Assembly: GCA_030834695.1 (NCBI GenBank)
Contig: JAUQXK010000127.1
Span: forward strand, 1-64,000
Source of the DNA: Desulfobacterales bacterium
GTDB lineage: Bacteria; Desulfobacterota; Desulfobacteria; Desulfobacterales; SpSt-501
DNA: 64,000 bases
Direction: 5' to 3'
Below are positions 2,560-60,032 of this stretch, one piece after another. The position numbers were made by a program, and so were the translations under genes. The notes beneath the pieces were generated by a model that was not told the origin of the DNA, did no database searches, and saw only the letters and a list, made by a program, of their open reading frames with translations. Each line of letters opens with the position of its first letter. Within the stretch, counting starts at the first letter, position 1.

Positions 2560-3174
2560 GTGGCTGGCGGCCGTTCAGACCGGGAAAGCGGAAAGGTCGG
2601 GACTGCGTTGAACGAACCCCTGCCACTTGAAAATCAAAAGCGGATCTGCCTCAACCCGAAGGTCATGGATCAGATAGCATCGCTTCGCAAAGCCGGCACG
2701 ACGGGAGTTCTTCTGGCCGACAAGGCCGAGGCGATCATCTGCAGACTGAAATCGGGAGAAGCCTGGCAGGCGGATCGAAAGATCGCTCCCCGCACGGCGC
2801 ACGGCGAAAAACGCATCCGCAAGTGCGTCAAGTATGATCTGGGCTGGGGGTTCCGGCTGATCACCATATTGCGCAAGAATTGCCTTTTCATCTGCTATTT
2901 GGGGCCACACGACGAATGCGACCGCTGGCTGGCGGAGAACAGCCGCCTTAAAGATCTCGAGGCCGGCAAATGGATTTTCTGCCGGATGGTAGCACCAAAA
3001 CCCATCAAAGAAGTTGCTCAACCTGAGGACTTCCGCGATGGGACGGATGATCTCGATTATCGCCTGCAAGAACTGCCAGACCGATTGCTGCGCCGCATAT
3101 TCTGCGGTTTAGTCGAAGCACGAAAGAGGCCTCCCGCTTCAAAAGCAACACGTTTCAGCGGGACGTGTGGTTGA
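2560..3174 (+). CDS. Uncharacterised protein with RelE-like segment
   Basis: 204 residues from GTG 2560; TTG 2608 (giving NEPLPLEN) is an alternative. I do not recognise the whole protein. Residues about 95-125 (GWGFRLITILRKNC, then YLGPHDECDRWLAEN) resemble the central strands and HDEYDRW-like signature of RelE/ParE-superfamily proteins, but it is about twice the length of a toxin and no small antitoxin gene adjoins it. It starts 16 bp after the activase and may be co-transcribed. The tail after residue 165 is basic and low in complexity. Function unknown; the RelE link rests on pattern resemblance only. Confidence 0.5.
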   Translation: MAGGRSDRESGKVGTALNEPLPLENQKRICLNPKVMDQIASLRKAGTTGVLLADKAEAIICRLKSGEAWQADRKIAPRTAHGEKRIRKCVKYDLGWGFRLITILRKNCLFICYLGPHDECDRWLAENSRLKDLEAGKWIFCRMVAPKPIKEVAQPEDFRDGTDDLDYRLQELPDRLLRRIFCGLVEARKRPPASKATRFSGTCG

Positions 3175-3419
3175 CTGACAGCTAAAGGGGCCAACCATAA
3201 AACGGAGGGATGAGCAATGAAGAGCGAATTCGAATTGCGACGGGAGGGGCAAGCCGCCGGCAGGCCATAGATAATAGCTATACGATAAGACCGGTTTATC
3301 AGATTAATCAATTTGCCTTTTCAGGCGCCACAACCTATCAATAATATTTCAAAACCTGAATCCGAAGGGACCCCTTTTTTACAAGCCAAGCCTTTCGCGA
3401 CTGAAAATGATTGAAAGCG

Positions 3420-4433
3420 ATGAAACGGTTTTTTACATCAGACACGGCTTACTGCTTCATGCGCTGGTCTCTTGGGGTTATCTTCCTTTACGCTGGCGGC
3501 TCCAAGCTTCTGGATCCCGAGGCATTTTCCGTGCTGATCGACTCCTACGGCATCGTGCCGGACCCCCTGCTCATGCCGGTGGCCATAGGGTTGCCCCTTT
3601 TTGAAGTGTTTGCCGCCGTGGGATTGATGATCGATGTTCGCGGGTCGCTCACGTCCATCTGCGCGCTGCTGTTGGTCTTCATGGCGATCCTGGGTTACGG
3701 GATCTGGATGGGACTGGATGTGGATTGCGGGTGCTTCGGCCCCGAAGACCCCGAATCCCGTGCCTACCATGGGCTTCGCCCTGCTCTATACCGTGATCTC
3801 GCCATGTTAGCAGGAGTCCTCTATCTTTACGTCTGGCGCGCTTACCGGCAAAAATCGCCGGTTAAACTATGGGATATCATTTCATCGATTCGGAAAGGAG
3901 AAGTTGCCATGGTTAAAGGGACATTGTGGATGCTTGTTGGGATAGGTTTGATTCTGGGAGGATACGGCCAAGCGGTCGCCGCGGACAAGTTCGAAGAGGA
4001 GTTCGGCTGGGAGAAAATCAGCATTGCACTTTACAACCAGACCAAGTCCGGCGGCTACAAACTGGTCGGCACCGAAGAACTGAAGTCATGGATCGATGCC
4101 AAGAAGGATATGATCGTCATCGACACCATGCCTTATGAGGATAGCTACAAGAAAGAGCATGTCCCTGGCGCCAAACAGTTCCTTTTTCCGATCCCCGACA
4201 TGAAAGCCTGGGACACGAAAGAGACCGCCGGCAAGAGCGAGCAGGATTTTCTGCAAATGCTGGGGCCGGACAAGAACAAGCTGGTCGTGATCTACTGCGG
4301 CTTCGTCAAATGCACCCGCAGCCACAATGGCGCGACGTGGGCGGTGAAGAACGGCTATACGAACGTCTATCGTTACCCCGGAGGTATTTTCGCCTGGAAG
4401 GGTGCGAAATACCCCGTCGGTGAGGTGAAGTAA
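3420..4433 (+). CDS. MauE/DoxX-like membrane protein fused in frame to a secreted rhodanese-domain protein
   Basis: 337 residues from ATG 3420. Residues 1-150 form four hydrophobic segments with the MauE/DoxX redox motif DCGCFG. Residues from about 164 look like a fresh signal peptide (MVKGTLWMLVGIG, then AVAAD), followed by a rhodanese domain whose active loop is VIYCGFVKCTRS. No stop codon separates the parts, and a good Shine-Dalgarno precedes an internal ATG at 3909, so two products may be made from one frame. MauE/DoxX proteins are thought to pass reducing power across the membrane; rhodaneses handle sulfane sulfur or selenium. The neighbouring selD and yedF suggest chalcogen metabolism. 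Predicted inner membrane with a periplasmic domain. Confidence 0.7.
   Translation: MKRFFTSDTAYCFMRWSLGVIFLYAGGSKLLDPEAFSVLIDSYGIVPDPLLMPVAIGLPLFEVFAAVGLMIDVRGSLTSICALLLVFMAILGYGIWMGLDVDCGCFGPEDPESRAYHGLRPALYRDLAMLAGVLYLYVWRAYRQKSPVKLWDIISSIRKGEVAMVKGTLWMLVGIGLILGGYGQAVAADKFEEEFGWEKISIALYNQTKSGGYKLVGTEELKSWIDAKKDMIVIDTMPYEDSYKKEHVPGAKQFLFPIPDMKAWDTKETAGKSEQDFLQMLGPDKNKLVVIYCGFVKCTRSHNGATWAVKNGYTNVYRYPGGIFAWKGAKYPVGEVK
3893..3911 (+). promoter_or_regulatory. Internal ribosome binding site and ATG for the rhodanese part
   Basis: AAAGGAG at 3893-3899 lies 9 bases before ATG 3909, in frame with the surrounding gene. The peptide that follows is a typical cleavable signal sequence. This suggests independent translation of a secreted rhodanese (3909-4433) as well as, or instead of, the fused product. 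Confidence 0.55.
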
Positions 4434-4449
4434 GACGGTCAACTATTGT

Positions 4450-4665
4450 ATGGAATTCATCTTCGTCTGCCCGCTGAAGCGAGAATCGTTTTTCAGCGGG
4501 CATTTTGAAGTTACCGACAACCAGGGAATCACGGTCGATGAAGACGGCAGCCGGTACCTGAACGCACGCATCCGTCTCACCGAGCCGTGCCCGCATTGTG
4601 GGGAGCACCACGAGTACCGAGCGAATGAACTGGCATGCCCTTTCTCTTCTAAAGAAAGGGACTAA
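4450..4665 (+). CDS. Small conserved-looking zinc-ribbon protein
   Basis: 71 residues, starting 16 bp after the rhodanese gene and ending 47 bp before selD. It has one N-terminal cysteine (FVCPLKRE), a CPHCGEHH knuckle near residue 50 and a late cysteine (LACPF), consistent with a small zinc-binding fold. I cannot assign a function. Position inside the rhodanese-selD-yedF block suggests a minor role in selenium or sulfur handling, but that is guilt by association only. Confidence 0.55.
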   Translation: MEFIFVCPLKRESFFSGHFEVTDNQGITVDEDGSRYLNARIRLTEPCPHCGEHHEYRANELACPFSSKERD

Positions 4666-4712
4666 GGTACCGCTACTTTTCCCCATCACCGAAATATGAG
4701 AAACCCGAATAG

Positions 4713-5771
4713 ATGAGTTCCACTTCAAAAGACCAACCAATTCGTTTGACCGCGACCGTCGCCGGATCCGGCTGAGCGTCCAAGCTGGCTCCAGGGGACC
4801 TGGATCGGGCCCTGTGCGGGATGGTGTTCCCGACCGATGAGAATGTCATTGTCGGGCTGGACCGGGCCGATGACGCCGGAGTTTACAGGATATCGGACGA
4901 CCTGGCCCTGATCCAGACCGTGGACTTCTTCACGCCCATCGTCGACGATCCGTATTGGTTCGGACAGATTGCGGCCGCCAACGCCCTGAGCGATGTCTAC
5001 GCCATGGGCGGAGTTCCCAAGACCGCCATGAACCTGGTGGCCTTTCCGATCAAGGAGATGGACATCACCATCCTGCGGCGGATCATCCAGGGCGGGGTCG
5101 ACAAACTCTCGGAAGCCGGTGTCGTCCTGGTGGGCGGCCACAGCATCGAAGACCGGGAGCTCAAATACGGTCTTTCCGTTACCGGGTTCGTGCATCCGCA
5201 GCGCGTGCTCGTCAAGAAAAATCTGCGGGAAGGCGACCGGCTGATCCTGACAAAGCCGCTCGGGACGGGAATCGTGAACACCGCCGTCAAGGCCGGGATG
5301 GCCTCAGCGGAGTTGACGGCCCGGGTCACGAACCTCATGGCGGCTTTGAACCGGACGGCCGCCGAAGTCATGGCATCCTTCGACGTGCACGCCTGTACCG
5401 ACGTGACCGGGTTCGGGTTGCTGGGGCATCTTTCCGAAATGGTCTGCGGGTCCGGTCTGGGAGTTCGCGTTTTCGCGGGCCGGGTGCCGATGATTCCCGA
5501 AGCCCTGGAATATGCATCCATGGGGCTCATCCCCGCCGGCGCATACAAGAACCGGGATTTTCGGGAGGCGATGGTTGCCTTCGCGGAGCCGGTGGAACGC
5601 GCGCACCGGGACGTGCTCTTCGACCCGCAGACTTCCGGCGGGCTGCTGATCAGCTCACAGGGTGGGCAAGCCACCGAGCTGTTGGAAGCCTTGAAGCAAA
5701 ATGGCGTTCGCGATGCCGTCGAAATCGGCGAAGTCATAGCCGGACCGGAAGAGAAGATCTGGGTTATTTGA
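4713..5771 (+). CDS. selD: Selenide, water dikinase (selenophosphate synthetase), selenoprotein form
   Basis: SelD makes selenophosphate from selenide and ATP, the selenium donor for Sec-tRNA and selenouridine. Reading from ATG 4713 gives 352 residues, the normal family length, provided TGA 4773-4775 (codon 21) is read as selenocysteine. The context is then AGSGU-ASKLAPGDL, exactly the SelD active-site loop that carries Sec or Cys followed by the essential Lys. Later motifs include DFFTPIVDDP, NALSDVYAMGG and DVTGFGLLGH. Without recoding the frame would begin only at ATG 4821 and lose the catalytic loop. yedF follows 77 bp downstream. The organism must therefore have selA, selB and selC elsewhere. 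Confidence 0.93.
4773..4803 (+). promoter_or_regulatory. UGA-Sec codon and candidate bacterial SECIS hairpin in selD
   Basis: TGA at 4773-4775 is followed by CCAGG (4791-4795), loop GGA and CCTGG (4799-4803), a perfect 5-bp stem beginning 15 bases after the UGA. That is the spacing range expected for SelB-bound bacterial SECIS apical stems. The stem was found by eye and not folded computationally. Confidence 0.65.
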
Positions 5772-5848
5772 GAAGCCGTTCGTTTTCTCACCGGCAGCCC
5801 CAAACACGAAACACCAAACACCATACGCCCTTTACGAAAGGTCCTGCC

Positions 5849-6445
5849 ATGAAGGAAATCGACGCGAGAGGGTTGGCCTGTCCGGCTCCGGTGCTGCACA
5901 CCAAGGCCACTCTCCAGGAAGAGAAACCGGCGGCCGTGAAAGTCGTCGTCGACAACGCCGCATCCCAGCAAAACGTCCAGCGCTTTCTCGAATCGCAGGG
6001 TTTTCAGACGACCCTCCAACGGGAAGGGGGAGACTACTTCGTTATGGGCCGCTGCGGCGAGGTGGCGGGGGAGCAGCCGAAACCGATCGAACCGGCGGCG
6101 GTCGAGCACAAGAAAATTTTGGTGCTCTGCGCCACTGACCGCCTGGGGACCGGCGACGACGCGCTGGGTCTAAAGTTGATGGTCAATTTCCTGCGCACGC
6201 TGAAGGAAATGGGACCGGAGCTGTGGCGGCTGGTTTTCGTGAACAACGGAGTCAAGCTGACGGTAGGAGGCTCGGACGTGCTCGACGATCTCAAGGCCTA
6301 CGAAAGGTCCGGGTTGAAAATCATGGTCTGCGGAACGTGCCTCACTCACTTCAACCTGTTGGAAAACAAGCAGGTCGGCGAGACGACCAACATGTTGGAC
6401 ATCGTGACTGCCATGCAAGTGGCCGACAAGGTGATATCAATATGA
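5849..6445 (+). CDS. yedF: Selenium-metabolism-associated TusA/DsrE fusion protein YedF
   Basis: 198 residues. The N-terminal TusA/SirA domain (about 1-75) opens with EIDARGLACPAPVL, whose Cys is the sulfurtransferase-type active residue. The C-terminal DsrE-like domain (about 90-198) holds further cysteines, including KIMVCGTCLTHF. YedF-type fusions commonly sit beside selD in selenium-using anaerobes and are proposed to carry or buffer selenium; the mechanism is not settled. Preceded by GAAAGG seven bases before the ATG. Confidence 0.85.
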   Translation: MKEIDARGLACPAPVLHTKATLQEEKPAAVKVVVDNAASQQNVQRFLESQGFQTTLQREGGDYFVMGRCGEVAGEQPKPIEPAAVEHKKILVLCATDRLGTGDDALGLKLMVNFLRTLKEMGPELWRLVFVNNGVKLTVGGSDVLDDLKAYERSGLKIMVCGTCLTHFNLLENKQVGETTNMLDIVTAMQVADKVISI

Positions 6446-25153: not shown

Positions 25154-25182
25154 TTGACACCCCCTGAATTCAAGGATAATTT
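25154..25182 (+). promoter_or_regulatory. Sigma-70 promoter for the riboswitch-kup transcript
   Basis: TTGACA at 25154-25159, 17-bp spacer, TAATTT at 25177-25182. Transcription would begin near 25189, about 20 bases before the aptamer's P1 stem. The -35 is consensus and the -10 moderate. Confidence 0.6.
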
Positions 25183-25208
25183 ACCGCCCGCCTAATTCCG
25201 GCCACCGG

Positions 25209-25363
25209 CCGGAAGCGGGGGACCCGTGACAGCGGGGCGAATCGCGAACCAGCGATGGGCAACCTCTTCGGCCCTATCCCTTCAGCTAACCTCGCCGGCA
25301 TCGATGAGGAGAACCTTCGGAGGAGACCGGAGGGGGACTTCTCCCGCATCCAACTTCCGGAGG
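25209..25363 (+). ncRNA. ydaO-type c-di-AMP riboswitch with translational expression platform
   Basis: Conserved ydaO landmarks appear in order: GGGGGACCC (25217-25225), GGGGCGAATC, GCGATGGG, CCCTATCCC and CAGCTAACCTCG. P1 is CCGGAAG (25209-25215) with CCTTCGG (25314-25320). CCTTCGG can instead pair with CCGGAGG (25327-25333), and CCGGAGG can alternatively pair with CTTCCGG (25354-25360), whose last two bases belong to the kup Shine-Dalgarno GGAGG (25359-25363). Ligand binding should therefore hide the ribosome binding site: c-di-AMP turns K+ uptake off. Class identification is from remembered consensus; the pairings are read directly. Confidence 0.9.
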
Positions 25364-59909: not shown

Positions 59910-59917
59910 ACGAACTA

Positions 59918-60002
59918 GAATTCGTTCAGGGGTGGCTGACAAAGCCTGAGATCACACCCGCGGAACCTGATCTGGATCATGCCAGCGTAGGGAAACGAAT
60001 TC
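59918..60002 (+). ncRNA. TPP (THI-box) riboswitch aptamer
   Basis: P1 GAATTCGT (59918-59925) with ACGAATTC (59995-60002). The conserved core GGGGTGGCTGAC, CTGAGATCACACCCG, GAACCTGATCTGGATCATGCCAGCGTAGGGAA matches the THI box point by point in these segments. It controls the downstream thiM-E-L-D operon; high TPP should favour the terminator at 60033. Confidence 0.95.
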
Positions 60003-60032
60003 GGGTTGGCTGCCGCAGCATCGGCGACTCGA

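Follow-up and report, generated by a model that had tools for sequence, protein, structure and literature searches.

The window, by which we mean the whole 64,000-nucleotide stretch that was analysed (positions 1 to 64,000 of contig JAUQXK010000127.1, Desulfobacterales bacterium assembly GCA_030834695.1), carries near its left end a series of forward-strand genes that includes selD and yedF. The features discussed here are as follows.

1–451, + strand: double-cubane-cluster reductase gene of the HgdB/BcrC family (NF040772, 196.7 bits; PF06050), 3' part only, as the contig starts inside it
528–1736, + strand: iron-sulfur oxidoreductase, heterodisulfide-reductase/GlpC-like (partial match to NF045663, 226 bits)
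1746–2543, + strand: acyl-CoA dehydratase activase (TIGR00241, 227.8 bits)
3411–4433, + strand: membrane protein with a C-terminal rhodanese-like domain (TsoB-like partial match, 84.7 bits)
4713–5771, + strand: selD, coding for selenide, water dikinase, 352 aa, predicted Sec at residue 21 (TIGR00476; PDB relatives 2yye and 3u0o; orthologues in Desulfobacterales)
4773–4775, + strand: in-frame UGA, predicted Sec codon at the position equivalent to catalytic Cys17 (from alignment with the E. coli and Aquifex proteins)
4791–4803, + strand: predicted apical stem-loop of a bacterial SECIS, CCAGG-GGA-CCTGG (silent-site constraint at codons 26–30, pairing kept in orthologues)
5849–6445, + strand: yedF, sulfurtransferase-like selenium metabolism protein (TIGR03527, 210.7 bits), adjoining selD

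The activase is likely the partner of the double-cubane-cluster reductase. Between the activase and the rhodanese protein lies a 204-aa protein (2560–3174) with no Pfam or NCBIfam match, a homologue of which (37%) is found near the tRNA gene selC* (see below) in locus L275. A 71-aa ORF with a CPHC...CP zinc-ribbon-like pattern (4450–4665) sits just upstream of selD, and a small ORF like it also precedes selD in genome G002 (locus L196). The adjacency of yedF and selD is repeated in L196, L275, L210 and L211. Far from these genes, the window holds a c-di-AMP (ydaO/yuaA) and a TPP riboswitch, at 25179–25315 and 59917–60010 respectively, both above the Rfam gathering score.

The selD frame is bounded by an in-frame TAG at 4710–4712, directly followed by ATG 4713, and by the stop TGA at 5769–5771, and the single internal TGA of this frame, 4773–4775, is codon 21. 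Read through, the product matches the SelD family model TIGR00476 over residues 11–317 with 385.5 bits (cutoff 125), in agreement with the first-pass annotation of this DNA, which had described the frame from 4713 as SelD apart from this one TGA and had placed the TGA at the Sec/Cys position of the catalytic loop. Alignment bears out the latter placement as well: residue 21 falls on the first Cys of the loop (GAGC17GCK in E. coli, 3u0o; SSGCAAK in Aquifex, 2yye), and the loop Lys follows three residues after Sec or Cys, in U21-A-S-K24 as in C17-G-C-K20 of E. coli (Lys20). A mechanical ORF caller starts the gene at 4821 and returns 316 aa without residues 1–36, the very loss of the active site that had been foreseen for standard annotation, so that the catalytic residue of this selD is missed by plain gene callers.

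The UGA is conserved at the Sec/Cys site among relatives. selD was present in 52 of 58 relatives (those that are named being mostly Desulfobacterales), and every full-length copy among the matches listed has exactly one TGA. An unbiased selD search of 291 genomes of the class, in which a few copies were incomplete, likewise gave one in-frame TGA in nearly all full-length copies among the matches listed. One apparent selD without the UGA, in G288, was rejected because the stretch is masked with N.

Beyond the UGA, the arms CCAGG (4791–4795) and CCTGG (4799–4803) enclose the loop GGA, with the stem starting 15 nt and the loop 20 nt after the codon. Bacterial SECIS elements place their loop 16–37 nt past the UGA and have G among the first two bases of the loop, and GGA at 20 nt has both properties. 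The first-pass annotation had proposed a SECIS hairpin at this place; the stem is there at the proper distance, but its fold taken alone is uninformative. The folding energy of the single sequence was no better than that of shuffles (z = -0.36 for 39 nt, +1.15 for 51 nt), and a stem of at least 5 bp arose within the allowed window in 57% of synonymous shuffles, the observed stem of 6 bp being reached in 9%. With z near 0 and chance stems this common, we rejected the single-hairpin fold as evidence and relied on conserved silent sites and pairing.

We examined silent sites in a codon alignment of 80 selD genes, taking each gene's own codon use as the expectation; these genes were gathered with a pattern that requires the UGA, so that its presence in 80/80 is by selection. 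Pro27 is encoded by CCA in 80% of the genes (expected 16%), Gly28 by GGG in 100% (expected 27%), Asp29 by GAC in 99% (expected 40%) and Leu30 by CTG in 99% (expected 39%), and across the 79 orthologues the codons CCR-GGG-GAC-CTG are almost invariant at silent sites (z 11–16). No other 5-codon window of selD is constrained as strongly as codons 26–30 in this alignment, where 95% is reached in no more than 3 of 275 codon columns, and codons 22, 24 and 25, ahead of the hairpin, are used near expectation. All five pairs are retained in 78 of the 79 orthologues. Position 3 of the Pro27 codon, the pairing partner of the U in CTG, holds A or G in 79/79, as pairing requires, although in these genes every second Pro codon ends in C or T. 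As the orthologues are related rather than independent, we place weight on the contrast within the gene and not on p-values. The silent-site freeze and the kept pairing together support the hairpin at 4791–4803 as a predicted bacterial SECIS.

The source genome encodes the machinery for Sec insertion: selA (contig C41, 615 bits), a full selB (C54, 375 bits) and tRNA-Sec(UCA) (C140, 75 bits), with slight uncertainty in their co-occurrence across contigs of a draft in 149 contigs with 4.96% contamination. In G016 and G054, assembled in one or two contigs, a UGA-type selD also occurs with selB and tRNA-Sec. We searched the source genome for a Cys-type selD and found none. A second, divergent selD (C5, 32429–33418; 331 aa, 47% identical) was considered as a Cys-type backup and rejected, since it has a UGA at the same position (TCGUAAK). 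Both selD types are carried by several relatives, including the one-contig genome G016. The first-pass reading had hinged on selA, selB and selC being in the same genome and on the lack of a Cys-type selD elsewhere in it, and on both counts it came through.

We put at roughly nine in ten the probability that this is an ordinary Sec-type selD whose UGA at 4773 is decoded as Sec by way of SelB and the downstream hairpin. With selA, selB and tRNA-Sec(UCA) in the genome, Sec insertion is the best explanation, and from it we infer both the decoding as Sec and the identity of the acting SelB. SelB carrying Sec-tRNA-Sec would bind the hairpin at 4791–4803 and the ribosome would insert Sec at UGA 4773; the resulting Sec21-SelD would make selenophosphate, which SelA would use to convert Ser-tRNA-Sec to Sec-tRNA-Sec. 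The start at 4821 given by a plain ORF caller is what one would expect if selD were decayed or mis-sequenced, with the TGA a true stop and the gene either dead or translated from 4821. This has next to no chance of being correct: the region upstream of 4821 is conserved as protein, the UGA stands at the same codon throughout Desulfobacterales and the silent sites downstream of it are constrained, comparative data that contradict decay. Suppression of the stop by a near-cognate tRNA without SelB, for which we found nothing specific in favour, would leave unexplained both a frozen hairpin at the proper distance and the presence of selA, selB and selC, and we regard it as very improbable. The central claim of the first-pass annotation, that selD is a selenoprotein gene, is thus upheld by the UGA conserved in relatives, the constrained silent sites of the hairpin and the machinery in the genome.

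That annotation had also asserted that SelD needs its own product to be made. A self-dependence of this kind was remarked on earlier (PMC1794560), and an autocatalytic loop is plausible, its strictness varying with the routes at hand: it follows for a cell with the Sec route alone, but an obligate loop is put in doubt by a Cys kit, consisting of a UGA-decoding Cys-type tRNA and its own SelB*, which makes a bypass through Cys-SelD conceivable. Parts of such a kit lie on contig C11 of the source genome.

C11 4806–4897: selC* tRNA (UCA anticodon, U73, A1:U72, 8-bp acceptor stem, 4-bp T stem with a bulged A)
C11 from 4921: selB*, 24 bp downstream of selC* and running off the contig end (selC*-selB* 4806–6342)

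A selC* tRNA-Cys/SelB*/CysRS* module of Desulfobacterales comes from Mukai et al. (2017), as presented in a review (PMC7609411), and that a non-canonical tRNA-Cys with SelB can recode the Sec UGA as Cys is asserted in the title of Vargas-Rodriguez et al. (2018), as cited in PMC8762117. The C11 tRNA has the traits of selC* tRNA-Cys, including selB* downstream, and U73, the short T stem with its bulged A and A1:U72 led us to reject it as a plain second tRNA-Sec; its helices show compensatory changes in 10 of 28 pairs, as against 0 of 500 shuffles. In a quick tree, where can_L183 and can_L195, two rows in the wrong frame, stand out as long outliers, the SelB* proteins form one clade apart from canonical SelB, with which they are 57% identical at the N-terminus and about 18–23% in the C-terminal winged-helix region. 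Contamination is an unlikely source of the duplicate machinery, since the C11 SelB* groups with that of same-genus G002 and genomes of one or two contigs carry both selB genes. CysRS* is 436 aa long, and its match to positions 2–384 of the 466 in the CysRS model, taken with the translated end, indicates that the C-terminal anticodon-binding part is missing. cysS* follows selB* in G002 and G174 and is absent directly after it in G029 and G022; in the source genome its site would lie in the stretch missing from the assembly between C11 and the window contig, C65. The C11 tRNA and selB* are members of the published selC*/selB*/cysS* kit.

Two variants of the kit were seen among relatives. In L206 (G011 C128, 4719–4810) the anticodon of a selC*-type tRNA adjoining selB* is GCA (Cys) rather than UCA. 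In L276 (G122 C40, 14533–18720) two selC*-selB* units stand in tandem, with the reductase, activase, yedF and selD genes close by, and one selB* match is split in two pieces.

The kit recurs beside the genes of the window. The double-cubane reductase gene follows selB* or cysS* in relatives (L196, L197, L198, L275), and a homologue of the rhodanese protein lies just upstream of selC* in L196. On one contig of G002, which is of the same genus, the order is rhodanese protein-selC*-selB*-cysS*-double-cubane reductase-activase-selD-yedF; in G174, of another family, it is selC*-selB*-cysS*-reductase-activase-second reductase-like gene-selD-yedF, so that in both genomes a single additional gene or fragment separates activase from selD. 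The window reads reductase 3' part-iron-sulfur oxidoreductase-activase-rhodanese protein-selD-yedF, and C11 ends inside selB*. Judged from G002, C11 is probably the neighbour of the window contig, adjoining its left end across a gap of about 2.6 kb that would contain the rest of selB* at its 3' side, cysS* and the missing 5' portion of the reductase gene. A covariance-model search of the 291 class genomes gave about 36 strong copies of selC*, and at least 8 of the about 36 selC* genomes, from 6 families, have a selD no more than 25 kb from selC*, against about 0.5 expected; this count is of pairs on the same contig, which are not independent cases, and is a lower bound partly because contigs are broken. 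The linked genomes are G029, G122, G022, G002, G255, G174 and G093, together with G086, where the selD is a divergent one.

This recurrent placement suggests Cys insertion at the selD UGA as a bypass independent of selenium. The codon would be read as Sec when selenium is available and as Cys through selC* and SelB* (and CysRS* where present), a proposal we hold to be unlikely on balance. The match of the C11 tRNA to published selC* tRNA-Cys (PMC7609411), selB* 24 bp behind it and in a clade of its own, the CysRS* without an anticodon-binding part, the shared order through to yedF in G002 and G174 and the excess of selD-selC* linkage over expectation all point towards it, and the Cys enzyme of E. 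coli works. Yet selC* is missing from most genomes that carry this UGA-type selD, the selD hairpin is the same whether or not selC* is there, and the far-diverged winged-helix region of SelB* may bind another SECIS. Linkage itself may stem from shared redox regulation only; in several selC* genomes, such as G016 and G054, selD is distant from selC*, and in the source genome selC*/selB* and selD are on separate contigs whose adjacency we infer. It is equally doubtful that an active Cys-SelD restarts the selenium pathway; if it did, the loop would not be strictly autocatalytic. If dual decoding were true, the UGA of selD would be a dual-identity codon in the gene that underlies selenium use, and a selenium-independent SelD would start or rescue the Sec pathway. 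The recurring cluster of kit and selD offers a concrete, testable idea of the kit's purpose and of how a self-dependent pathway might be started.

Decoding as Sec remains our preferred reading, and as such the window selD has close counterparts. By sequence it belongs to the same family as E. coli SelD (3u0o) and shares its catalytic loop, but has Sec in GSGUASK where the E. coli protein, functional with Cys, has Cys17 in GAGCGCK. A selD with an in-frame UGA is the usual form in sulfate-reducing bacteria and has been known for a long time, Sec-type SelD being a classic bacterial selenoprotein; it is among the most widespread of these, many Deltaproteobacteria being listed as having it (PMC1794560), and a bSECIS of prokaryotic SelD has already been reported (PMC4561486). 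With Sec-type SelD/SPS2 of Deltaproteobacteria and other bacteria the window gene shares Sec at the Cys17 equivalent, a bSECIS immediately downstream and selA/selB/selC in the genome, and, differing in nothing of substance, it is a new sequence in that family. The likeness to the published selC* module extends from the C11 tRNA (UCA, U73, A1:U72, 8/4 acceptor/T stems, bulged A) and downstream selB* to the cysS* of G002, without an anticodon-binding domain, and, in G174, a cysS* homologue in the corresponding position. In the literature searched, which lay outside the primary selC* reports, we found no placement of the kit beside double-cubane reductase, activase, selD and yedF, and this recurrent position is where the genomes here differ from the published module. 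Sec-SelD and selC*/selB*/cysS* are each known, and the less usual point is their occurrence beside each other in this lineage.
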